64,000 nt of DNA from Pontibaca methylaminivorans. GTDB lineage: Bacteria; Pseudomonadota; Alphaproteobacteria; Rhodobacterales; Rhodobacteraceae. The position numbers and the translations under genes were made by a program. Within the stretch, counting starts at the first letter, position 1, and every line of letters starts with the position of its first letter. Below the pieces are notes generated by a model that did no database searches, was not told the DNA's origin, and saw only the letters and a program-made list of their open reading frames with translations. The stretch is taken from contig NZ_FTPS01000001.1 of assembly GCF_900156525.1 (NCBI RefSeq), forward strand, positions 2,275,021-2,339,020, given 5' to 3'. Below are positions 24,144 to 62,612 of the stretch, piece after piece.

Positions 24144-24699
24144 GGGTCCGGGCGCGCGCCCGGTGGCCTGACCGTACCCGCGCGCGGCTCCCCGCGTTCG
24201 GACATATCCCGCGCGGACAGCGGTGCAGGGCGGCGGAATATGGGCCGGGCACCTGCCGGCATACCAATGCCGGGTCGGATCTTGCAGTCCTTTGGCCGGG
24301 CCAGTCGCCCGATCCCGATGCCGGAGTGATCAGGCATCCTGCCGGGCATGATCCGGGCCGTTGCGGGGCATCCGCCATTCGACTGCCCGGGTCACTTTCC
24401 TGAAAATAAAAGATTTTATGGAAGCTTATTGACTCCCGGGAATTAATGTTTCCTCTCCGCAAATTTTCTCTTGCCAGAGAGGTGGGAATAGGTGTCTCAT
24501 GGAGCGCAATACCCGGTATACCTCCCGGGTGTGAAGATGGGGCTGCAGGACGTTAAGCGTCATGTGCAGCGCCAACAACCAAGACCCATTTGCCCATGGA
24601 TGCCGGACGGCAGCGTCATGCGAGATTCACTCGTCGATCCCTTGCGGCAATCAAGATCAGTGAAAAAGTCGAGGTGCCAATAAAACAGGGAGAGAACAA
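24144..24699 (+). other. Gene-free leader region upstream of the small-membrane-protein/APC operon
   Basis: A stretch of 556 bases with no supportable coding frame. The first 250 bases are GC-rich. The rest is noticeably more AT-rich than the surroundings and contains a perfect 6+6 inverted repeat ATAAAAGATTTTAT (24406-24419), then a series of hairpins (see 24452..24570), ending with a GGGAGAG ribosome site just before the ATG at 24700. I did not find a convincing -35/-10 pair; TTGACT at 24429 has no good -10 partner. Confidence 0.6.
24452..24570 (+). promoter_or_regulatory. Structured leader, possible cis-acting RNA element
   Basis: Three stable hairpins can be drawn by eye. The first pairs CCTCTC (24452-24457) with GAGAGG (24477-24482) and has an inner GCAA/TTGC helix. 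The second pairs ACCCGG (24511-24516) with CCGGGT (24525-24530). The third has an outer GCTGCA/TGCAGC and an inner GACG/CGTC helix (24542-24570). A small TGCC/GGCA hairpin follows at 24601-24612. No known riboswitch consensus, including glycine and guanidine types, was recognised. A regulatory role is inferred only from the length and structure of the leader. Confidence 0.35.
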
Positions 24700-25011
24700 A
24701 TGTCTGATTTGGCCAGACGAATACAAACCATGCATCGCCGGGATGTTGCGGTGGCATGGGCTTTCGTAATCGGATTGTGGTTCGCGATCATTTTCGTTGC
24801 CATTTCGACGTGGTCGCTGGCTCCGAGCGCGGCTGCACGAATCGTGTTGCTGACCGGGGGCGCCGTGGTGCTGGTGTTCAACACCGCTGCCATTCTCGCC
24901 ATGCTGCGGCATTATCGTGAAGACCGCGACTTCATGTATGGCCTGGACATCAAGTTTCTTGATGCCTCCAAGCACGGACAGAAGGCAGCAAAGCGGTGGG
25001 CGGAAAAATGA
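24700..25011 (+). CDS. Small two-helix membrane protein (first gene of the APC operon)
   Basis: A 103-residue protein with a basic N-terminus (LARRIQTMHRRD), two membrane helices at about 17-37 and 45-68, and a charged C-terminal tail (RHYREDRDFMYGLDIKFLDASKHGQKAAKRW) predicted to be cytosolic. No family is recognised. Codon use is less GC-rich than in neighbouring housekeeping genes. A GGGAGAG ribosome site precedes the start. Its stop overlaps the start of the next gene by four bases (ATGA), so the two are translated together. Confidence 0.8.
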   Translation: MSDLARRIQTMHRRDVAVAWAFVIGLWFAIIFVAISTWSLAPSAAARIVLLTGGAVVLVFNTAAILAMLRHYREDRDFMYGLDIKFLDASKHGQKAAKRWAEK

Positions 25012-25388
25012 AGAAATACGTACCGCCCAAACAAAGCAAGTTCGGGCAGATCCTCGACGTTGCGGTATTGCTCGTGCTGACGATCGGTGCGCTTTACATT
25101 CCGCTGTTCCTGGGAATGGCCGGCAGTGCCCATATCGTTCAGACCATCGAGTCACCCACATGGGAAAGCCTCAACCAGAATGCGGCAATGGTCGAGCAAT
25201 GGGGAAAGCTCGGTTATGACACCGCAGAGGCGGCCGCGCCCCTGATCACGGCCCGCTTCGATTATTCCTTCAGCATCTTCGCGCTGATCGCGGTGATTGT
25301 CACGATCATCGGCTATTATGCAATCATGCTGAAATTCTCCGAAAAGGAATATCGTGAAGTTATCGCCGAGAAGTTCGGTGAGGAATAG
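25008..25388 (+). CDS. Small two-helix membrane protein with extracytoplasmic loop
   Basis: A 126-residue protein with a basic start (MKKYVPPKQSKFGQ), membrane helices at about 16-38 and 88-110, and an intervening loop of about 50 residues rich in aromatic and acidic positions (TWESLNQNAAMVEQWGKLGYDTAE). If both termini are inside, the loop would face the periplasm and could contact a substrate or the permease. The C-terminal tail (KFSEKEYREVIAEKFGEE) is charged. No family is recognised. It sits between another small membrane gene (overlap) and a 56-residue one (12-base gap). Confidence 0.8.
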   Translation: MKKYVPPKQSKFGQILDVAVLLVLTIGALYIPLFLGMAGSAHIVQTIESPTWESLNQNAAMVEQWGKLGYDTAEAAAPLITARFDYSFSIFALIAVIVTIIGYYAIMLKFSEKEYREVIAEKFGEE

Positions 25389-25400
25389 GGAAGAGGGATA

Positions 25401-25571
25401 ATGGCTGTCTGGAATCTGATTGAATACGGCGCCTGGGGACTGGCGATCATCCTGGGCCTTTATATCGTTATCGACTGGCTTCGCACCGACGCGCGTTACA
25501 GCGAGGAAGACCTGACCTCGTCGCGCGAGGGGCAGATCGAGGCCATGACCGAAGAGCATAGCAAGCTTTAA
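25401..25571 (+). CDS. 56-residue single-pass membrane protein
   Basis: A very short gene, ATG at 25401 to TAA at 25571, preceded by an AGAGGGA ribosome site. It encodes MAVWNLIEYGAWGL at the N-terminus, one membrane helix (about 8-25), and an acidic, hydrophilic C-terminus (YSEEDLTSSREGQIEAMTEEHSKL) likely to lie in the cytosol. Spacing of 12 bases on both sides, to the gene before and the permease after, argues strongly that it is real and co-translated. It resembles the small subunits that accompany some transporters (for example KdpF- or CydX-like in size), but no homology is claimed. Confidence 0.8.
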   Translation: MAVWNLIEYGAWGLAIILGLYIVIDWLRTDARYSEEDLTSSREGQIEAMTEEHSKL

Positions 25572-25582
25572 GGATTACTCAC

Positions 25583-27004
25583 ATGTCAGATACAATAAGC
25601 AATTCGCCAGGTGTCTCGACTGGTGAAGACAAGAAGTTTGTGCAGGGTGCGGGGCTGCTGCGGATTCTGGGGCCGGCGCATATCTGGGCGCTCGGCGTCG
25701 GTATCGTGCTCGTCGGCGAATATATGGGCTGGAACTTTTCGGTGGGGAAGGGCGGCGCCTATGCGGCGCTGATCGCGTGCTGGTTCGCGGGTATCCTGTA
25801 CAGTTGCGTCGCCATGATCGACAGCGAGGTGACATCGACCGTGGCCGCCGCCGGCGGGCAGTATACGCAGGCCAAGCACATCATCGGGCCGCTGATGGCC
25901 TTCAATGTCGGGCTTTACCTTGTCTTCGCCTATACGATGCTGGAGGCCGCCAATGCGATCACCGTCAGCTTCCTGTTCGAGACGATTGCCTCGATGACCG
26001 GCCATGACGGGCTCGATCCGAAGCCCTTCATCGTTCTCGCGATCGTGTTCCTGGCCTGGCTCAACTACCGCGGGGTGCTCGCGACGCTGACCTTCAATCT
26101 CGTCATCACCGCGATCGCCTTCACGGCCATCCTGATCCTGTTCCTGGGCACGACGCCGCTGTTCGGCGAAAGCCCCCTGAAACACGCGGAGCTGATGACC
26201 GACCTGCCTTATGGCTGGCTCGGGGTTCTGGCGGCGATGCATTTCGGGCTGTGGTATTATCTCGGGATCGAGGGCACCTGCCAGGCGGCGGAAGAGGTCC
26301 GCTCGCCCAGCCGGTCGCTGCCCTTCGGAACGCTTGCCGGGGTCATGACCCTTTCCATCGCGGCCACACTGACCTGGTATATCTGTTCGGGGCTGATGCC
26401 GTGGGAGTATCTGGGCCAGTCGGGCGTTCCGCTGTTCGATGCGGCACGGCTGTCGGGGTCGAACATGCTGATGGTTCTGCTGGGTGTCGGAACGCTGTTT
26501 GCCACGCTGGCCTCGGCAAATGGCTGCATCAACGACGCCTCGCGGGCATGGTTCGCGATGGGCCGCGACCACTACCTGCCGTCATGGTTCAGCGCCGTGC
26601 ATCCGGTCTATCGGACGCCCTACCGCTCCATCATCTTCCTGGTTCCCATCGCGCTGATCTTTGCGCTTGGTGCGCCGCTGGATCAGGTGATCACCTTCTC
26701 GATCCTGTCGGGGCTGCTGGAATATACCTTCATGCCGCTGAACGTGATCCTGTTCCGTCGCAAGTGGCCGCTGGATTCGATCAAGCGCGGGTACGAGCAC
26801 CCGTTCCATCCGATCCCGGCCATCACCCTGCTGTGCCTGTGCGGGGTCACGTTCTTCGCGGTGTTCCTTGGCTACGGCACCCAGCTTGTCGCGATGATTT
26901 CCTTCTACATCATCGTGTCGCTCTGGTTCCATTTCCGGCGCTACCGCTACGTGGAGCGGGCCGCGCAATTCACCATGCCCTGGCCGCGGCCGCAAGGGTA
27001 CTGA
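25583..27004 (+). CDS. APC-superfamily amino acid/amine permease, ethanolamine-transporter-like
   Basis: A 473-residue carrier with about 12 membrane segments and the APC signature regions. The first helix region reads GPAHIWALGVGIVLVGEYMGWNFSVGKGG, the GEY.GW pattern I associate with the ethanolamine (EAT) subfamily. Later segments include GIEGTCQAAEEVRSPSRSLP (conserved helix 6/loop 7) and YRTPYRSI. It would import a small amine or amino acid by cation coupling. The substrate is not determinable; ethanolamine is a guess from subfamily resemblance. Three tiny membrane genes lie immediately upstream in the same operon, which is unusual for an APC carrier. Confidence 0.85.
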   Translation: MSDTISNSPGVSTGEDKKFVQGAGLLRILGPAHIWALGVGIVLVGEYMGWNFSVGKGGAYAALIACWFAGILYSCVAMIDSEVTSTVAAAGGQYTQAKHIIGPLMAFNVGLYLVFAYTMLEAANAITVSFLFETIASMTGHDGLDPKPFIVLAIVFLAWLNYRGVLATLTFNLVITAIAFTAILILFLGTTPLFGESPLKHAELMTDLPYGWLGVLAAMHFGLWYYLGIEGTCQAAEEVRSPSRSLPFGTLAGVMTLSIAATLTWYICSGLMPWEYLGQSGVPLFDAARLSGSNMLMVLLGVGTLFATLASANGCINDASRAWFAMGRDHYLPSWFSAVHPVYRTPYRSIIFLVPIALIFALGAPLDQVITFSILSGLLEYTFMPLNVILFRRKWPLDSIKRGYEHPFHPIPAITLLCLCGVTFFAVFLGYGTQLVAMISFYIIVSLWFHFRRYRYVERAAQFTMPWPRPQGY

Positions 27005-27133: not shown

Positions 27134-27829
27134 ATGCAGGATTACGGACTGGCTTTGTTGCTGATCCTCACCGGGGCGGTACTTGCCCTGTTCGCCTACC
27201 GCAACCTGGGCGCGGCCAGGGCAAGACGCCTGTCGCGCCTGGCCTATTTCGACGCGTGCCGCCCGGTTTTTCAGGCCGTCCGGCTGGGCCGGGCCGCGAC
27301 CGGCTTCCCTCGTCTGGCGGGGCGGTTTCGGGGCCATGAATTCGATCTGCAGGCGGTTCCCGAAACGCTGACCTTCCGAAAGCTGCCCGCCTTGTGGGTG
27401 CTGGTGTCGCTGCCCGCACCGATGCCGGTTGGCGCGAATTTCAACCTGATGATCCGCCCCACCGGGGTCGAGTCCTTCTCGGGTTTTCATCGCCTGCCGG
27501 AGCAGATCTCGATTCCTCCCGGTTTCCCCGAGGATTGCGCCATCCGCACCGATGACATCGCCCGGGTGCCGCCCGAACATGTCCTGCGCAAGCACCTGCC
27601 GCTGTTCGATGATCCAAGGGTCAAGGAACTGGTGATTTCGCCCGCCGGACTGCGGATCACGCTGCTGGCCGAAGAGGCGGACCGGTCGCGCTATCTGTTC
27701 TTCCGCGACGCCGAGATGGGCCGGTCGCCGCTGCCGCCCGCCCGGATCACGCCCCTTCTGGACAGGCTGCTGGAGATGAAATCCGACATCGAGCGCCACT
27801 CTCTGAACCAATCCGGTTATGCCGCATGA
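27134..27829 (+). CDS. Membrane-anchored protein of unknown function
   Basis: A 231-residue protein with a single N-terminal membrane helix (about 5-22, LALLLILTGAVLALFAY) followed by a soluble domain of about 200 residues containing the segments RFRGHEFDLQAVPETLTFRKLP and LVISPAGLRITLLAEE. No family is recognised. A GGAGG-like ribosome site (27120-27124) precedes the ATG. Its stop overlaps the next gene by four bases. It lies downstream of the triple hairpin, so it may be expressed with the APC operon at a reduced level. Confidence 0.75.
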   Translation: MQDYGLALLLILTGAVLALFAYRNLGAARARRLSRLAYFDACRPVFQAVRLGRAATGFPRLAGRFRGHEFDLQAVPETLTFRKLPALWVLVSLPAPMPVGANFNLMIRPTGVESFSGFHRLPEQISIPPGFPEDCAIRTDDIARVPPEHVLRKHLPLFDDPRVKELVISPAGLRITLLAEEADRSRYLFFRDAEMGRSPLPPARITPLLDRLLEMKSDIERHSLNQSGYAA

Positions 27830-28107
27830 AACTTGCTCTCGACCGACCGCTCAATCCCTATCTCGTCCTTGCCACGGCGATCGTTCTGCCCGGCGTCGGA
27901 CAGGTTCTGAACCGGCAGCCGTTCCGCGGACTGCTGTTCCTGTTCTTCATGTTCCTGCTGGGAGGATATACGTTGAAGACCGCCGCGCCTGACGTGTCGT
28001 TGCTGGGCAAGTTCGCCGGGGGCGCTTTCGTCTATGCGATGGCGATTTTCGACGCCTATCGTCACGCCCGCGTCCGTCACGAACTCTGGCGGCACAGGCC
28101 CGGCTGA
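27826..28107 (+). CDS. Small membrane protein of unknown function
   Basis: A 93-residue protein with two or three hydrophobic stretches: about 12-27 (LVLATAIVLPGVGQVL), 33-50 (FRGLLFLFFMFLLGGYTL) and 62-75. The NP...A...LPG.GQ..N....G..F opening resembles small TM2/DUF-type membrane proteins, which I could not place more exactly. It begins with an ATGA overlap on the preceding gene and ends with a basic tail (RHARVRHELWRHRPG). Likely partner of the protein at 27134. Confidence 0.7.
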   Translation: MKLALDRPLNPYLVLATAIVLPGVGQVLNRQPFRGLLFLFFMFLLGGYTLKTAAPDVSLLGKFAGGAFVYAMAIFDAYRHARVRHELWRHRPG

Positions 28108-28271: not shown

Positions 28272-28347
28272 TGGTGAGCCGTGCAGGATTCGAACCTGCG
28301 ACCTACTGATTAAAAGTCAGTTGCTCTACCAACTGAGCTAACGGCCC
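28272..28347 (-). tRNA. tRNA-Lys (anticodon TTT)
   Basis: On the minus strand a 76-base cloverleaf starts GGGCCGT, with a D-arm AGCTCAGTTGGTAGAGC, an anticodon stem ACTGA/TCAGT around loop CTTTTAA (anticodon TTT), a T-arm with GGTTCGAATCC, and acceptor partner ACGGCTC followed by A and an encoded CCA. One G-U pair lies in the acceptor stem. It stands alone between the small membrane protein and mtaB. Confidence 0.97.
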
Positions 28348-30101: not shown

Positions 30102-31112
30102 ATGAAACGATTCATGTATACCAGCGCGCTTGCCGTTGTCGCCGCTTCGGCGGGGGTCGGCATGGCACAGGCGCAGGAGGACTGCGGCTCGGTCGTGATC
30201 GCGAGCATGAACTGGCAGTCGGCCGAGGTGCTGTCCGAGGTGGACAAGTTCATCCTCGAGAACGGCTATGGCTGCAGCGCCGAGATCATCACCAGCGACA
30301 CGGTCCCGGCGCTCACGTCGATGATCGAGAAAGGGCAGCCGGACGTCGCACCCGAAGGCTGGGTCGACCTGCTGCCCGACGTGGTGGATCGCGGTATTGC
30401 GGACGGCAAGATCGTCTCGGCCGGGCCGGCCCTGTCGGACGGCGCGGTGCAGGGCTGGTGGATCCCGAAATACCTGGCCGACGAGCATCCCGATATCAAG
30501 ACGATCTCGGATGCGCTCGATCATCCCGAACTCTTCCCCGCGCCCGAGGATCCCTCGAAGGGGGCGGTCTATAACGGGCCGCAGGGCTGGGGTGGAACCG
30601 CGGTTTCGGAACAGCTTTTCAAGGCCTATGACGGGGCGGAAAAGGGCTTTGTCCTCGTGGACAGCGGTTCGGCCGCCGGGCTCGACGGTTCCATGGCCAA
30701 GGCTTACGAGCGTCAGGACGGCTGGCTTGGCTATTACTGGGCCCCGACCAGCATGCTCGGCAAATACGACATGGTGAAGCTCGACCATGGCGCGGAGCTC
30801 GACATGGACCAGTGGGAAAACTGCATCACCGTGCCCGAATGTCCCGATCCGCAGCCGACCGACTGGCCCGTGGACAGCGTCGAGACGCTGCTGACGACCG
30901 ATTTCGCCGAACGTGCCGGCGACGGGGTGATGGAATATTACAAGGCCCGCTCCTGGTCCAACGACACCGTGAACGCGCTCATGGCCTGGATGACCGACAA
31001 TCAGGCGAGCGGCGAGGACGCGGCAATCTATTTCCTCCAGAACAACGAAGACCTCTGGAAAGAATGGCTCCCCGAAGACGTGGCGGAAAAGATCCGCGAC
31101 AGCATCAACTGA
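30102..31112 (+). CDS. proX: Quaternary-amine ABC transporter, periplasmic binding protein
   Basis: A 336-residue protein with a Sec signal ending at AQAQE and the OpuAC/ProX fold. Several Trp residues suited to a cation-pi cage are visible (MNWQSAE, PEGWVDLL, GWWIPKY, GPQGWGG, YYWAPTS). It captures glycine betaine, proline betaine, carnitine or trimethylamine N-oxide; the exact ligand cannot be told. A GGGGGAGG ribosome site precedes the ATG. It is followed by the permease (92-base gap) and the ATPase. The carnitine-catabolic unit at 9.8-12.7 kb makes carnitine or betaine attractive substrates. Confidence 0.85.
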   Translation: MKRFMYTSALAVVAASAGVGMAQAQEDCGSVVIASMNWQSAEVLSEVDKFILENGYGCSAEIITSDTVPALTSMIEKGQPDVAPEGWVDLLPDVVDRGIADGKIVSAGPALSDGAVQGWWIPKYLADEHPDIKTISDALDHPELFPAPEDPSKGAVYNGPQGWGGTAVSEQLFKAYDGAEKGFVLVDSGSAAGLDGSMAKAYERQDGWLGYYWAPTSMLGKYDMVKLDHGAELDMDQWENCITVPECPDPQPTDWPVDSVETLLTTDFAERAGDGVMEYYKARSWSNDTVNALMAWMTDNQASGEDAAIYFLQNNEDLWKEWLPEDVAEKIRDSIN

Positions 31113-31204
31113 TCCGCGGCGACGGCCACGCATAGACAGGGAGGGCGGCGCCGGAATCTGCCGCCGCCCCCCACCGAAGCCTCAATGACTGCAGGAGCGG
31201 CGGC

Positions 31205-32092
31205 ATGGACTGGCTTACCACTTTTCCCCATATGGAAACCAGCAAACTGAGCGCGCTGAAACGTGCGATCGATGCCGGCTTCCGCGACTTCACCCGGACC
31301 TATGGCAGCGGAATCGAAAGCTTTTTCGATCCTCTCCAGTATTTCCTCGTGCAGTCCGAACGGTTTCTGACCCAGACGCCCTGGCCGATCATCCTGCTCG
31401 GCATCGCGGCCATCGCCTGGGTTGCCAGCCGCAACTGGAAGGTCGTTGCCGGCACCGTGATCACCCTGCTGATCATCGGTTATTTCGACATGTGGACCGA
31501 CACCATGAAAACGGTGTCGATGATCCTGGTCTGCACGATCCTGGCGATCACGGTCGGTATCCCGCTCGGGATCCTCATGGCCAAGGCCAACTGGGCGCAG
31601 CGGATCATGAACCCGATCCTCGATGTGATGCAGACCATGCCGAGTTTCGTCTACCTGATCCCGGTGGTGATGCTGCTCGGGATCGGCAAGGTGCCGGGGC
31701 TCATGGCGGTGGTGGTCTATGCGATCCCGCCGATCATCCGCCTGACCAACCTCGGCATCCGCATGGTCGACCCGGACATGATCGAGGCGGCGGATGCCTT
31801 CGGTTCCTCCGGCTGGCAGCGGCTCAGGAACGTGCAGATGCCGCTGGCGCTGCCCACCATCATGGCCGGCATCAACCAGACCATCATGATGGCGCTGGCG
31901 ATGGTGGTCATCGCCTCGATGATCGGCGTGCAGGGGCTCGGCCAGCCGGTGCTGAAGGCGATCAACAATCAGTATTTCACGCTCGGTGTGTTCAACGGTC
32001 TCGCCATCGTCGGCATCGCCATCATCTTCGACCGGGTGAGCCAGGCCTATGGCAAGCGCCTGCAGCGGCATCTGGAGGTCGTCCATGGCTGA
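31205..32092 (+). CDS. proW: Quaternary-amine ABC transporter, permease
   Basis: A 295-residue inner-membrane protein of the ProW/OpuAB family. An N-terminal soluble segment of about 55 residues precedes about seven helices. The EAA coupling loop is visible as DMIEAADAFGSSGWQRLRNVQMPLALP, and MQTMPSFVYLIPVVMLLGIGKVPG is typical of the family. It pairs with the ATPase gene, whose ATG lies within its last codons (eight-base overlap), so the two subunits are produced together. Confidence 0.92.
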   Translation: MDWLTTFPHMETSKLSALKRAIDAGFRDFTRTYGSGIESFFDPLQYFLVQSERFLTQTPWPIILLGIAAIAWVASRNWKVVAGTVITLLIIGYFDMWTDTMKTVSMILVCTILAITVGIPLGILMAKANWAQRIMNPILDVMQTMPSFVYLIPVVMLLGIGKVPGLMAVVVYAIPPIIRLTNLGIRMVDPDMIEAADAFGSSGWQRLRNVQMPLALPTIMAGINQTIMMALAMVVIASMIGVQGLGQPVLKAINNQYFTLGVFNGLAIVGIAIIFDRVSQAYGKRLQRHLEVVHG

Positions 32093-33182
32093 TCACACGG
32101 CAGCGGAACGCGCGGAACCGGGGACGGGGATCGAGGTCCGCAATCTCTACAAGATCTTCGGCGCCCGCCCGCATGATTATATCGACCTTGTTCGCGGCGG
32201 CATGAGCAAGACCGAACTGAACGAGAAGCATCACCATGTGGTCGGTCTGCGCGACATCAACATCCTGATGCCCGAGGGCCGGATCCAGGTGATCATGGGG
32301 CTGTCGGGTTCGGGCAAATCGACCCTGATCCGCCACATCAACCGTCTGATCGACCCGACCGTGGGCGAGGTGCTGGTGAACGGCGAGGACGTGGTCAAGA
32401 TGGACAAGGCGGCCCTGCGCCGCTTTCGACGCCACCAGACCGCGATGGTGTTTCAGAAGTTCGCCCTGCTGCCGCATCGCAGCGTGCTGGAAAACTCGGT
32501 CTACGGGCTCGAGGTGCAGGGGGTGCCCCGCAAGGAACAGGTCGAGCGCGCCATGCGCTGGATCGAGCGGGTCGGGCTCAAGGGGTTCGAGGGCAGCTAT
32601 CCCAATCAGCTTTCCGGCGGCATGCAGCAACGCGTCGGGCTCGCGCGGGCGCTGACCAACGATGCCCCGATCCTGCTCATGGACGAGGCGTTTTCCGCGC
32701 TCGACCCGCTGATCCGCACCGACATGCAGACGATCCTGCTCGACCTGCAGAAGGAAATCCGCAAGACGGTGGTCTTCATCACCCATGACCTCGACGAGGC
32801 GCTGCGCCTTGGCGACCGCATTGCCGTGCTGCGCGACGGCGAGATGGTGCAGCAGGGCACGGGGCAGGAGATCGTGCTGAAACCGGCCGACGACTATATC
32901 TCGCGCTTCGTGCGCGAGGTGAACCGCGGACGTGTCATCCAGGTCGAAACCGTCATGACGCCCGGCGCGGCTGCAGAGGGCGAAGCGGCGGTGCCGGTGC
33001 CTGCGGGGACGCTGCTCGAGGATGCCGCGCAGATCCTGAGCCGCGAAGGGGTGCGCATCGCGCAGATCACCGACGCGGATGGCCGACCCCTCGGCACGCT
33101 GCGGCTTCCCGATCTGATCCGGGCCATGGTGACGCGCGATCAGGACGAACATACCGCCCCCGCGCCAGCCGATCCGGCCTGA
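32085..33182 (+). CDS. proV: Quaternary-amine ABC transporter, ATPase
   Basis: A 365-residue ATPase of the ProV/OpuAA family. Walker A is GLSGSGKST, the signature LSGGMQQRVG and Walker B ILLMDEAFSALDP, with the family-typical KI.G and GLRDI segments at the N-terminus. The C-terminal 80 residues include one CBS-like half (LLEDAAQILSREGVRIAQITDADG..LG) that in relatives senses ionic strength; two full CBS repeats are not obvious here. I use the ATG at 32085 (MADHTAAERAEPG) because it overlaps the permease stop. Confidence 0.93.
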   Translation: MADHTAAERAEPGTGIEVRNLYKIFGARPHDYIDLVRGGMSKTELNEKHHHVVGLRDINILMPEGRIQVIMGLSGSGKSTLIRHINRLIDPTVGEVLVNGEDVVKMDKAALRRFRRHQTAMVFQKFALLPHRSVLENSVYGLEVQGVPRKEQVERAMRWIERVGLKGFEGSYPNQLSGGMQQRVGLARALTNDAPILLMDEAFSALDPLIRTDMQTILLDLQKEIRKTVVFITHDLDEALRLGDRIAVLRDGEMVQQGTGQEIVLKPADDYISRFVREVNRGRVIQVETVMTPGAAAEGEAAVPVPAGTLLEDAAQILSREGVRIAQITDADGRPLGTLRLPDLIRAMVTRDQDEHTAPAPADPA

Positions 33183-58471: not shown

Positions 58472-59902
58472 TCAGCCGCCGGCCCAGGGACCAAAGCCGA
58501 ACTGCAGGTAATCCTGCCGGTAGATGTCGCTGATCCGGCGTTCGATCTCGTCATCATGGATGTCGGCAAGGGCAAAGGGGCGGTCGCCCTGCGCGCGTTG
58601 TGGAACGGGCGCAGCGTCATGCCCGAGGCTCCGCGCGAGGGCGGGCAGGGCGGTTGCGAGTTCATCCTCGCGCAGCAGGTGATCGGGCGCTGCATATTCC
58701 GTGAAACCGGCCAGCGCCTGCGCCTGGGTGCACCAGGCCGCATCGACCCGCAGCGCCGTCTGCCCGGCCAGATTGGCGCGCAGAAAATCGAGAAATGCGA
58801 CAAAGGCGCGGCGATGTGACTCGAGGTCGTAACCGGCGCCCGGCATGTCGCGCGGGATCGGCAGGCGGAAATGCTTGCGCAGGGTCTCGCGGATCCGCGC
58901 ATAGCTTCCCGGTCCGGTCGACAGAACGCGTTCGCAGAAGACCGAATGAACCCGCGCCGCCGGGTGGCGCAGCACGGTAAAGCTGCGGTGGCCCGGGCGC
59001 TCGCGCTTCCACTGGTTGAGATCGCGGCGGTTCATTCCGGTCAGAAGCGCGGCGTCCTCCACATCGTCGAGCGCCGCGAGCCACCGGCTGACCTCTGTGA
59101 GCGGCCCGCCGCGAATCGGCAGATAGAGCAACGGTGTCCGCACCGCCGCCAGATGGCCGGGAATCGCCGGGCCGCGGCGGGGCTCGAAATTCGGGGTGCG
59201 CGCCAGATCGAACCAGTCGATTGCCCCAAGCGCGGCCTGCATGTCGTCGGGATTGGCCACCTTTTCATGGGTCGGCGCCGGGTTCTGCGGCTTCAGGCTG
59301 CGGTCGAGCGCCTCGATCCGCTGATCGGACCCCAGCCATTTCGCGAGGCCGTTCATCACCTCGACCTCCTGCAGATCCTCGTAGGCCAGATGAAAAGCAG
59401 TCTGGCCGCTGGTCTGGAGCCGGTTCAGGATCCGGATCTGGAACTGCTGCAGCCGGCTCACATAGCTGGCGAACTCGACCCCGTCGAACATGGCCAGGGC
59501 ATCGCGGCGGCGCTTCACATTGGTCAGCTTCCACTGGCCCGTTTCCTGCGCGATCTTCCACGATACATAGCTGTCGAGCGGATTGCGCGTGAGCACGATC
59601 TTGGCGCAGCAGGGATCGGACAGCGCGATCTCCAGCACCCGCGGGTCGTGGTCGTGAAAGAAGCGGAACCCGCCGAGCCCGGGCTGCGAGCGGATCGCCT
59701 CGACCAGCTTCGCCGGATCGGCGTCGCGGGCCTCGCGAGTGAGGCCGAGAATATCCTCGCCCCCGGGGTGGCCGATGAAATGCGGGTTGAAGGCCTCGCC
59801 ATGGCAGGTCAGCCCCGGGATCGCATTCAGATTGGTCTCAAGGAAATTCGACCCGGTGCGCATTTCGGCAATAACAATGAAATAATCAAAAGGGTTACGC
59901 AT
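58472..59902 (-). CDS. Two-domain sulfotransferase
   Basis: A 476-residue protein at the end of the glycan operon. The N-terminal half (about 1-230) has a complete PAPS site: the 5'-phosphosulfate loop AEMRTGSNFLETNL and the 3'-phosphate segment IVLTRNPLDSYVSWK. The C-terminal half looks like a second, family-2 type sulfotransferase fold: LLYLPIRGGPLTEVSRWL stands where P.TGGTS is usual, followed by FTVLRHPAARVHSVF and ISDIYRQDYLQFGF at the end. The second loop is imperfect. It would sulfate a sugar of the exported glycan. It starts one base into the preceding stop. Confidence 0.82.
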   Translation of the reverse strand: MRNPFDYFIVIAEMRTGSNFLETNLNAIPGLTCHGEAFNPHFIGHPGGEDILGLTREARDADPAKLVEAIRSQPGLGGFRFFHDHDPRVLEIALSDPCCAKIVLTRNPLDSYVSWKIAQETGQWKLTNVKRRRDALAMFDGVEFASYVSRLQQFQIRILNRLQTSGQTAFHLAYEDLQEVEVMNGLAKWLGSDQRIEALDRSLKPQNPAPTHEKVANPDDMQAALGAIDWFDLARTPNFEPRRGPAIPGHLAAVRTPLLYLPIRGGPLTEVSRWLAALDDVEDAALLTGMNRRDLNQWKRERPGHRSFTVLRHPAARVHSVFCERVLSTGPGSYARIRETLRKHFRLPIPRDMPGAGYDLESHRRAFVAFLDFLRANLAGQTALRVDAAWCTQAQALAGFTEYAAPDHLLREDELATALPALARSLGHDAAPVPQRAQGDRPFALADIHDDEIERRISDIYRQDYLQFGFGPWAGG

Positions 59903-61605
59903 TACTGTTCATGCACCAGATAAGGTTTGCGGGAAGGTTCGGATTCTGCGTCCTGCTTTTGCTCGAGCGGAAAATCCCCCATCAGATAGGGGTGCATGCC
60001 CTGGTTGCGCAGGTCCTGCAGGAACTGCCCGAATCCGTCGAGATCGACCAGCCGGGGCAGCGGCGTCAGGTGCTGTTTCGGGCCGGGAACGATGTTGTCG
60101 ATCACCACCTGCAGCGATTCGAGCGGGGCTTCGATGAAATCGGCCATGCTCCAGACGCGGATCCGGGCGCCGGCCCGCGGCTGGCGCAGAAGCTCAAGGT
60201 GCGCGCTTTCGATCCGCTGCAGGGCGGCCGCCTCGCGGCGCAGGTCGGCAAAGGGGCGGGCCGAGCGGAACAGCGGCACCGCCCAGGCGCCGAGAATGAC
60301 CGTGATCCGCGCATTCGGATCCGCCGCCAGGAACGGCGCGATCTGTTGATTGTCACGGGGGCCGAAAAGAAACGCCTGATGTTCGCCCCGGGTGTTCCAG
60401 ACCAGGCTGGTCAGAAAGGCGCGGGGGTCGTAATCGCGCTTGGCCGCGCTGTCGCTCAGCGCGCCCTGAACGGTGGATTCGCCCCCGCAGAATTCGGCGC
60501 GGCCGGGTGCGAACAGATGCCCGTGCACCCGGGCCGCGGTGGCGCGCGCAAGCCAGCCCGGAAAATCGTCGAAAAGCTCGGCAAAACCGCCGAGTACCGA
60601 ATAGGGCGCGGCGGTCAGGCCGTTTTCCCATCCGGGGTTCGGGTGGCGGCTTTGCATGTAAAGCCCGGGCTGACCGCGCGTCCGGCGTTCGGTCGCCCTG
60701 AGAAACAGCCGGTCGATCCGTGCCGGGGCCGGATCGGCGCGGGCGGGGGATTTCTGCCCGTCGCCCAGAAAGGCGCGGTAAAGTCCCTCGGCATGGGGCC
60801 AGATCTTGCGCGCGAGAAAACAGGACGACCGGCGCAGCAGTTGCAGGTGATCGTCGTAAAAGACATGCGGCTTGCCCTGGAAGTCGAACCGCGACAGGGT
60901 GAGCGAGCGGCTTTCGATCCGCCCGGAGTGGCGCCGGGCGAGACTCTGATAATAGCTCTCGTCCGGGATCCAGACCTGCCGGAAGTAGCGCTCGAATTCG
61001 GCCCGGCGCGGGTCGGTCAGGATCGCCCGGAGGGTGGCGCCGGTCAGACACCACCACTGGCTGCCCATGTGCGGCCGGATGCCTGCGGGAATGCGGCGGT
61101 GCCACCCGATCCGGCGCTGGATGTTCACCGCGCAATCGAACAGCCGGCGGTGTTTCTTCCAGGCAAAGGGAAAGCGCAGGGTGAACCGCTCCTCGTCCAG
61201 CCCGCCAACCGTCCATGGGACTTCGGCGGTGGTCGCGCTTTCGATGAAATCGGTGTCGGGATGGCGGGCGAGATAGGCAATCAGTTCACTAACGGGGCGC
61301 AGCGGCAGGCAGGAGCCCGAGGTCAGCAGCACATGACCAAGATCACCGTGTCGGGCCAGCAGGAGCCCGGCCGCCGACTGGGTTGCGGCCACGATCCCCC
61401 ATGTGCCCCATTCGCAACGGTGGCGTTCGCAGAACTGCACCAGAGGGTCATCCCCGAGCGCGCTGCGGAGCGCGTCGAAATCCGTCTGGCCGGTGTTCGC
61501 ATCGACATGGATCACCACCGGGCAGCCGGCGGCGCGCCAGTGGCGGGCGACCTGTGCTGCGCGCCCGAGCGCATCATGCACCAGCATGATCACGCCAAGG
61601 CTCAT
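59902..61605 (-). CDS. GT14-like (core-2/I-branching, xylosyltransferase-type) glycosyltransferase
   Basis: A 567-residue protein. The N-terminal half (about 1-260) resembles family GT14: IMLVHDALGRAAQVARHW, VVIHVDANTG, VLLTSGSCLPLRPVSELIAYLARHPDTDFIES and GSQWWCLTGATLRAIL. This family in animals makes core-2 branches or the xylose-Ser linkage of proteoglycans. The C-terminal 280 residues match no domain I can name with certainty, though such extensions are known in Rhodobacteraceae members (DUF5927/5928-type, from memory). The start at 61605 overlaps the upstream glycosyltransferase stop (ATGA). Confidence 0.82.
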   Translation of the reverse strand: MSLGVIMLVHDALGRAAQVARHWRAAGCPVVIHVDANTGQTDFDALRSALGDDPLVQFCERHRCEWGTWGIVAATQSAAGLLLARHGDLGHVLLTSGSCLPLRPVSELIAYLARHPDTDFIESATTAEVPWTVGGLDEERFTLRFPFAWKKHRRLFDCAVNIQRRIGWHRRIPAGIRPHMGSQWWCLTGATLRAILTDPRRAEFERYFRQVWIPDESYYQSLARRHSGRIESRSLTLSRFDFQGKPHVFYDDHLQLLRRSSCFLARKIWPHAEGLYRAFLGDGQKSPARADPAPARIDRLFLRATERRTRGQPGLYMQSRHPNPGWENGLTAAPYSVLGGFAELFDDFPGWLARATAARVHGHLFAPGRAEFCGGESTVQGALSDSAAKRDYDPRAFLTSLVWNTRGEHQAFLFGPRDNQQIAPFLAADPNARITVILGAWAVPLFRSARPFADLRREAAALQRIESAHLELLRQPRAGARIRVWSMADFIEAPLESLQVVIDNIVPGPKQHLTPLPRLVDLDGFGQFLQDLRNQGMHPYLMGDFPLEQKQDAESEPSRKPYLVHEQ

Positions 61606-62612
61606 GCCCAGTTGCCTTTCGACATGAGGCCAAGGATTTCGAGCTGGCGCCAGTTGATATATTGCTCGGACCAGCGGCACCAGAGTTCGGGCTCGTCGGC
61701 GAGTGCCTCGGCATAGGCCCGGTATTCGACCGATCCGGCGTAATGCTGGTTGCGATGCAGTTCTTCCCTGGCCTTTGCGCCGAACGTGTCCAGAAACTTG
61801 GTATGGAGCAGAAGCCCCGAGGTCTTGTTCCCGCCCCATTCGTCATAGACGAGGTTCAGCCCGCGGGGCAGCAGCATGTGGGTCGAACTGACATAGGCAA
61901 AGCGGCGGTCCCATTTCACCAGCGGGATCTTGTTCAGCGCCGGCGCGCGCGCGGGCTGGTCGGCGAAGAACACGCGACCGCGCGGCCCACCCTGGATCCA
62001 GAGGTTGCGGAACATGGGATTGCGCTTGAGCGTATAGTTTCCGCTGTCGAACCAGCAGGCGATGTCCAGCGGATTCTGCCCCGCCCGGTAGGGCTGCGCA
62101 TCCAGCTTTCCCTTCGGATACATGTCAAGCAGCATGGCCCCGAAGGATTTGATCGAGGACGCGTCGAGCCAGTCGGTCAGCGCGCGGAGCGGCCGGCTGT
62201 CGCAGAAGGGATAGATCAGGAATTCGTCGGGATCGACCACGAGGCACCAGTGTCCATGACCGAACCGCGCCTGCAGCCCGTTCAGCCAGTCCACCCCGAA
62301 CCGCGCCTGCCGATAGCTTGCCCGCGTGTGCCAGAGCGAGACATCGGGCTGCGCTGCAAGGAAATCGCGCGATCCGTCGCTGCTGTCGTTGTCTATGATC
62401 AGGAAATGCCCGATCCCCAGGTCGCGATAGTATTTCAGGAAATAGGGCAGGCGGACCTGTTCGTTGCGCAGGGTCGAGAACAGCAGCAGGTCATCGCGGC
62501 GGATGGCCCCGGTCCGGTCCGCGACCGGGGCGAGGTCGCGCCGCCGCAATCTTGCGCGCAGACGTGCGGCTTCGCGCTCGATCCGCAGGCGGTATGACAC
62601 GGGCATCTGCAA
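61602..62612 (-). CDS. Family-2 type glycosyltransferase
   Basis: A 336-residue soluble glycosyltransferase. The core shows STLRNEQVRLPYFLKYYRDLGIGHFLIIDNDSSDGS and the metal-binding VVDPDEFLIYP (DxD-like). Similar GT2 proteins with LRNE....FL.YYR.LG occur in capsule and O-antigen clusters. A second in-frame ATG lies two codons after the first; either may serve. It is 18 bases after the preceding glycosyltransferase gene and overlaps the GT14-like gene. Confidence 0.87.
   Translation of the reverse strand: MQMPVSYRLRIEREAARLRARLRRRDLAPVADRTGAIRRDDLLLFSTLRNEQVRLPYFLKYYRDLGIGHFLIIDNDSSDGSRDFLAAQPDVSLWHTRASYRQARFGVDWLNGLQARFGHGHWCLVVDPDEFLIYPFCDSRPLRALTDWLDASSIKSFGAMLLDMYPKGKLDAQPYRAGQNPLDIACWFDSGNYTLKRNPMFRNLWIQGGPRGRVFFADQPARAPALNKIPLVKWDRRFAYVSSTHMLLPRGLNLVYDEWGGNKTSGLLLHTKFLDTFGAKAREELHRNQHYAGSVEYRAYAEALADEPELWCRWSEQYINWRQLEILGLMSKGNWA

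Follow-up and report, generated by a model that had tools for sequence, protein, structure and literature searches.

An APC-family carrier and five small membrane proteins form a conserved six-gene cassette with a possible role in methylammonium uptake

Heteromeric transporters built from an APC carrier and a dedicated, helix-bearing partner are represented in animals by the SLC7/SLC3 pairs, in which the partner is one large heavy chain. A precedent with a much smaller partner involves GkApcT, an APC carrier presumably of Geobacillus. On this carrier packs the single small helix of MgtS, a protein of the Escherichia coli expression host (PMC5803215). For MmpL3, TtfA has been described as an accessory protein in complex with the carrier (PMC6593404), and in methanogens the permeases MtmP and MtbP, for monomethylamine and dimethylamine, are encoded beside methylamine genes (PMC3017947, PMC8196204); these papers and those cited below are drawn on for their relevant sections. 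Here we describe a locus of Pontibaca methylaminivorans on a stretch of 64,000 nucleotides (contig NZ_FTPS01000001.1, positions 2,275,021 to 2,339,020, forward strand; hereafter the window, in which coordinates are counted), where an APC-family carrier is encoded together with five small membrane proteins, named S1, S2, S3, S5 and S6. Judged from sequence, this six-gene cassette may well be a methylammonium uptake system, composed of the carrier and dedicated membrane partners.

The cassette resembles the SLC7/SLC3 transporters in joining an APC carrier with dedicated helix-bearing partners, but has five small proteins and no large ectodomain: its largest partner has 231 residues, and no glycosidase-like heavy chain was found by Pfam above cut-off among S1, S2, S3, S5 and S6 of the window. 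Whereas MgtS came from the expression host, the cassette partners are conserved and encoded in the carrier's own operon. MtmP and MtbP, compared here by description only, are likewise named methylamine uptake permeases next to methylamine genes, but they belong to archaeal methanogenesis clusters and no small partners are mentioned in the relevant sections of those papers. Neither a described system with the layout of the cassette nor a dedicated methylamine importer for the bacterial N-methylglutamate route, whose enzymes are known, was found in the open-licence literature. For that literature, the statement of an earlier, sequence-only reading of this DNA that no such layout had been described is upheld, and the multi-part importer that the cassette probably encodes is apparently undescribed.

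Six genes that travel as a unit

All six genes lie on the plus strand. A Shine-Dalgarno-like AGGGAGAG (24687..24694, by direct sequence reading) precedes S1 (24700..25011), an open reading frame for 103 aa; two membrane segments are predicted in S1, and its C-terminal tail is charged. S2 (25008..25388, 126 aa) and S3 (25401..25571, 56 aa) follow at spacings of -4 and +12 bases, and the carrier (25583..27004, 473 aa, recognised by PF13520) begins at a spacing of +11. The list of open reading frames starts S2 at GTG 24996; the ATG at 25008 was used as the start, with the stop at 25388. Behind the carrier, 129 bases separate it from S5 (27134..27829, 231 aa), which has an N-terminal membrane helix and an alpha/beta domain in its predicted fold, and S5 overlaps by 4 bases with S6 (27826..28107), a small membrane protein of 93 aa that is weakly DUF5683-like. 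Hydropathy gives two membrane segments each for S1, S2 and S6 and one each for S3 and S5. The lengths and spacings that the sequence-only reading had listed for the three upstream genes match the re-read frames exactly, and hydropathy returns the same two, two and one helices. Its view of S1-S3 as partners of the carrier stands, but its count of three does not, since the two further cassette genes downstream, S5 and S6, bring the partners to five.

A GTDB search with the carrier gave 400 relatives. The counts below use the best 80; these are the closest ones, several of them near-identical, and relatedness inflates the locus counts. The order S1-S2-S3-APC-S5-S6, on the same strand, was found in 78 of the 80 loci, and the two incomplete loci run into contig ends, L067 stopping after the carrier and L079 beginning inside S3. 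S1 is present in 79/80 loci (the 80th starts downstream of it), as is S6 (the 80th ends upstream of it). As extracted, seven of 89 loci contain a single in-frame stop in the frame of one of the six genes; the 89-locus table includes the window (L001) as well as L002 and L003, which equal the rows L028 and L092, and the 80-locus count avoids these. Because six genes recur in order in 78/80 loci, the arrangement is far beyond chance.

The same grouping was recovered from other samples. In plasmid records the carrier and S2 occur together in 22/22; the next carrier listed there shows 30% identity, and S2 was found in no other plasmid record at E ≤ 0.01. A family sample of 248 genomes contains the carrier in nine. 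All nine have S1-S3 ahead of it (in G023 the contig start truncates S1), and eight also have S5 and S6; the ninth is truncated at the end of a contig. In a phylum sample of 349 genomes, S2 and the carrier (at an identity of at least 65%) are confined to the same 13 genomes; in four others the only carrier shows 30-32%. When the search of the class and phylum samples was led by S2, 17 genomes were found, 16 of them with S1, S2, S3 and the carrier in order; the 17th, G345, gave a weak S2 match that contains a stop, and its 3.2-kb locus has none of the other cassette genes. Wider flanks for eight of the S2-found genomes revealed S5 and S6 in six, including G862 of another class; in the remaining two the contig ends first, within S5 in L142 and after the carrier in L146. 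Paraburkholderia caribensis, of the Betaproteobacteria, has all six genes at 32-66% identity. The six genes stay together as one unit in both Alpha- and Betaproteobacteria. These co-occurrence counts (78/80, 22/22, 9/9 and 13/13) strongly support the earlier proposal that ties the small genes to this carrier, and neither of the two outcomes named there as refuting it was observed: no such permease without the small genes was seen where the contig allows (80 loci, 22 plasmids, nine family and 13 phylum genomes), and no scatter of the small genes was seen, S1-S3 and the carrier standing together in 16/17 S2-found genomes.

The codon use of the small genes is, as the same reading had noticed, less GC-rich than that of their surroundings. 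In the window, the GC content at third codon positions (GC3) is 0.654 in S1, 0.701 in S2 and 0.737 in S3, against 0.833 in the carrier and 0.80-0.88 in six measured genes outside the cassette; mean GC3 in the relatives is 0.766, 0.786, 0.749 and 0.832 for S1, S2, S3 and the carrier, respectively. The ratio of nonsynonymous to synonymous substitution (dN/dS) ranges from 0 to 0.45 for S1, S2 and S3 (11 locus pairs each) and exceeds 0.25 in three of 33 values; S1-S3 are under purifying selection. In Sinorhizobium meliloti Ak57 (L111:13382-15353) the stops of S2 and S3 are lost and S3 and the carrier share one open frame, a state found in one of five rhizobial loci examined, possibly a sequencing error, and not used as proof of fusion.

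The carrier itself is in the APC superfamily by profile score (PF13520, 110.4 bits, cut-off 27; PF00324, 106.5 bits, cut-off 24.6) and by homology to the solved APC structures 6f34 and 5oqt (E ~1.6e-22, over residues 20-427 and 20-441). Its best-scoring curated model is the ethanolamine permease TIGR00908, at 184.9 bits (relatives L109 184.7, L112 193.3; a plasmid Eat protein 485.5). A filing as ethanolamine permease Eat was ruled out, the carrier reaching about half of the curated cut-off of 381.75. With three Eat proteins it shares 26-28% identity. Residues E46, E82, E121, E230, D80 and D318 are invariant in 100/100 aligned members of the carrier family; at the corresponding positions the three ethanolamine permeases likewise have E82 and E230, but they vary at 46 (D, E or Q) and carry P instead of E at 121. 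Eat is thus alike in the acidic or polar residue of the first transmembrane helix (TM1) at the E46 position, followed by GW, and in E82 and E230, but no plasmid record with eat has S2. The trimethylamine N-oxide (TMAO) permease TmoP is also an APC carrier of methylated-amine clusters but a separate one, and this filing was rejected as well: its family NF053774 is not among the 16 NCBIfam families matched at E ≤ 1 by the window carrier, and the L109 and L112 carriers have no match to it at E ≤ 1e-20. An amino-acid permease acting alone was set aside because the carrier subclass was never seen without the small genes where contigs allow.

Linkage to the N-methylglutamate pathway and the candidate substrate

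Methylated amines are widespread sources of nitrogen and carbon and contribute to marine aerosols. In the N-methylglutamate route, GmaS couples methylamine to glutamate, MgsABC forms N-methylglutamate, and MgdABCD carries out the oxidation of N-methylglutamate. Linkage of the cassette to these genes was counted, at identity thresholds of our own setting, in the 62 loci where the stretch ahead of the carrier exceeds 4 kb (long-flank loci; the 18/80 with 4 kb or less were dropped). At least one of mgsA, mgsB, mgsC, gmaS and mgd lies nearby in 49 of them, and the GmaS family is encoded elsewhere in the genome for 12 of the 13 unlinked loci. The names GmaS, Mgs and Mgd follow the Paracoccus aminophilus paper and record; in distant genomes they are assigned by similarity only, which is 35-43% in the case of the mgd-type genes of G862. 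Tmm, Tdm and Dmm in other loci are named from similarity and domain names. On P. aminophilus plasmid pAMI6 the cassette and mgsABC-gmaS are divergently oriented. The paper on methylotrophy of that organism, which has methylamine dehydrogenase as well, names the mgsABC-gmaS cluster; its sections 13 and 17 do not discuss the six cassette genes (PMC4543880). In S. meliloti Ak57 it is located between dmm/tmm-type genes and gmaS-mgsABC-mgd; the N-methylglutamate gene cluster contains the cassette in these two and in others. In the family sample, the GmaS family is found in 8/9 cassette genomes versus 82/248 overall (hypergeometric P 7e-4, uncorrected for relatedness). In most cases the cassette either neighbours genes of the N-methylglutamate pathway or occurs in a genome that has them.

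Several observations count against assigning the cassette to this pathway. In the window itself the two are not adjacent: mgsABC, gmaS and an XRE regulator lie near 1.67 Mb of the same contig, some 620 kb away from the cassette, with mgd and a tdm-like gene just past mgsABC-gmaS. The GmaS of P. methylaminivorans is divergent (542 bits, most members found exceeding 600; 57% to P. aminophilus), yet still sits with mgsABC (G000:C1 ~1.672-1.678 Mb, L106). Paracoccus sp. IB05 (G895), the exception among the 13 unlinked genomes, has no GmaS or Mau match and has a DmmA-type gene, and G023, a cassette genome that is 79% complete, has no GmaS match. No mgs or gmaS was found within 14-15 kb at the Aminobacter locus and on the Pseudohalocynthiibacter plasmid, where the search covered the cassette loci only. 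Finally, the cassette is missing from 74 of the 82 family-sample genomes with the GmaS family. Usually, then, the pathway operates without the cassette, and other entry routes for methylamine therefore exist.

Across the 31 cassette genomes, the methylamine dehydrogenase heavy chain is present in one and the dimethylamine-monooxygenase family is missing from eight, P. methylaminivorans included, which makes methylamine via N-methylglutamate the commonest companion of the cassette. Of the 23 genomes positive for that family, 21 have the higher-scoring type (>215 bits), a putative dimethylamine monooxygenase. The same cassette could instead handle dimethylamine, trimethylamine, another small amine or an N-methylglutamate-type intermediate, or export ammonium: tmm is near the cassette in 25/62 long-flank loci (counted at the locus only) and dmmA in 8/62, and the sole long-flank genome without GmaS has a DmmA-type gene. 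A betaine/choline-type ABC importer (OpuAC substrate-binding protein, permease and ATPase with CBS domain) is also encoded in the window at 30102-33182, and one lies near the cassette in Paracoccus sp. MA, which would suit such a substrate too. We nevertheless regard a substrate other than methylamine as unlikely, given that the dimethylamine-monooxygenase family is missing in those eight genomes, three of which (G285, G412 and G510) have gmaS directly beside the cassette.

Dimethylamine and trimethylamine are possible in that Tmm, Dmm and a second APC carrier adjoin the cassette in many loci, a further point against methylamine. This second permease, of about 600 aa, was seen near the cassette in 12/80 loci (e.g. 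L041:10660; also L109:5199-7004); the one at L109:5199-7004 is a TMAO permease above the curated cut-off. In the pAMI6 cluster, the second APC carrier, of 601 aa, is a TMAO permease that scores 834.8 bits for NF053774 (cut-off 690). For the methylammonium importer that we favour, the acidic membrane residues of the carrier would suit an ammonium group without a carboxylate. The sequence-only reading had proposed ethanolamine, methylamines and amino acids as substrates to test; genomic context favours methylamine over the other two. In Streptomyces, an analogous pair, a glutamine-synthetase-like enzyme with its own putative permease, is reported to serve ethanolamine (PMC6529630). Conserved proteins co-clustered with N-methylglutamate genes, together with amino-acid permeases, respond to methylamine in Methyloversatilis (PMC5023235), and amtB is named in the figure legend of a Ruegeria scheme (PMC5520151).

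The small proteins and a possible carrier complex

None of the window S1-S3 has a Pfam or NCBIfam match above cut-off, and none of S1, S2, S3, S5 and S6 matches a Pfam family above cut-off. Pfam scans of relatives gave weak matches only: among 48 S1 relatives, FA_desaturase in 19 (best E 5e-4) and Rv2743c in 40 (best E 0.0013); among 51 S2 relatives, unlike families (best E 0.002). A search with S2 found 2892 relatives at E ≤ 0.001 among 8000 candidates scored, and no Pfam domain was found on any of the 120 listed. What we take to be the small-subunit families of sodium:solute symporters (DUF485, DUF4212, DUF997 and DUF3311) are absent from the two and three families matched at E ≤ 0.5 by S1 and S2 of the window, and from the 25 commonest of the 35 and 36 Pfam families matched by the 48 S1 and 51 S2 relatives. 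The two S2 helices are joined by a loop of about 43 residues, and the tail of S3 carries a conserved motif, Y-x4-L-x-SS-x-EG; conserved residues also include RFDY in S2 and HY-x2-D in S1. By the positive-inside rule, an established basis for membrane topology, the S2 loop is predicted to face outward (extracytoplasmic) and the S3 tail and the S5 domain inward.

The alpha/beta domain of S5 is predicted to be cytoplasmic and may have a TtfA-like fold. In a structural alignment the S5 model resembles TtfA at 6% identity, and it also resembles chains of ribosome-translocon structures, which we take to be CCDC47. The precedent differs in that MmpL3 is a carrier of another family than the APC carrier here, and S5 is only 6% identical to TtfA by structure. 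A member-by-member Pfam scan of S5 relatives gave weak matches to unlike families (best E 0.07). S6 matches PF18935 (DUF5683) at E=0.0014 and 19.1 bits, below the cut-off of 26.7.

These features suggest how the system might work. The carrier would bind CH3NH3+ via conserved acidic residues, E46 (in TM1 by alignment) and others, and import it by the APC alternating-access cycle, and GmaS would trap methylamine in the cytoplasm and so drive net uptake. S1 and S2, with two helices each, and S3, with one, would pack round the carrier in fixed stoichiometry, as subunits stabilising or gating it; S5 may be a membrane-anchored cytoplasmic accessory or assembly factor, as TtfA is for MmpL3, with S6 as its membrane partner. 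From this we infer a physical multi-subunit complex of the carrier and its partners. More tentatively, the cassette could represent the first case of an obligately heteromeric APC carrier in bacteria: six proteins would together import methylammonium, S1-S3 completing the carrier and the TtfA/CCDC47-like S5, with S6, assembling or gating the complex. The central idea of the sequence-only reading is right in direction, with five partners in place of three and a better-supported substrate.

Other results argue against such a complex. GkApcT without MgtS keeps nearly the same melting temperature (57 vs 58 degrees; PMC5803215). When S2 was folded alone by AlphaFold2 (pLDDT 81.8, pTM 0.39), the arrangement of its helices came out undefined; this is consistent with a missing partner without showing one, and a search with its predicted fold gave no match at E ≤ 10. 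Foldseek returned no significant match for S5 (best E 0.14), and S5 has no sequence match to TtfA or to any PDB chain.

The partners might instead be regulators or assembly factors, S5 and S6 inserting or stabilising the carrier while S1-S3 sense external methylamine and the carrier acts as a transceptor. The resemblance of the S5 model to TtfA and the ribosome-translocon chains is what one would expect on this account, and an XRE-type regulator lies near the cassette in 38/80 loci; still, it appears to us somewhat unlikely, as the window S1-S3 contain no enzymatic or DNA-binding family above cut-off, with weak, scattered matches in S1 and S2 relatives, and sit upstream of the carrier with near-zero gaps, where stoichiometric subunits often lie. 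It is quite improbable that the genes are merely co-expressed, with the small proteins acting elsewhere in methylamine metabolism (for example on the respiratory membrane side of the dehydrogenase) and the carrier working alone. Co-inheritance by itself is no proof of contact, and to our knowledge bacterial APC carriers are generally held to work alone. However, S2 without the carrier was met only as the one weak match with a stop in G345 (S2-only search of the class and phylum samples), whereas 74/82 GmaS-family genomes are free of the carrier; S2 therefore follows the carrier more closely than the pathway.

Surroundings and significance of the cassette

Within 250 bases upstream of S1, a word AGGGAGGA, similar to AGGGAGAG, occurs on either strand in 31/84 loci. 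A palindrome, TTTCC-N4-GGAAA, precedes S1 in 28/84. The palindrome is a possible site for the neighbouring XRE regulator; as a shared operator it was dropped, being absent upstream of S1 in the window. A promoter and terminator scan stayed near chance level. Just after the cassette, on the minus strand, lies a tRNA-Lys gene (28272-28347). Genes for tRNAs often mark integration sites of transferred DNA, and integration at this one would fit the position of the cassette 620 kb from the pathway. Farther along the window are a sulfotransferase-like gene (58472-59902) and, adjoining it, a Branch-type glycosyltransferase with DUF5927 (59902-61839).

As a strict six-gene block, the cassette is a direct importer candidate that can be deleted in culturable strains. 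If it is a six-protein importer, it would serve as a dedicated route by which methylamine enters a large group of bacteria with the N-methylglutamate pathway. If the small proteins are true subunits, the cassette would break the rule of thumb of lone bacterial APC carriers, and carriers that depend on a partner, such as the human SLC7/SLC3 pairs, would gain a bacterial model.

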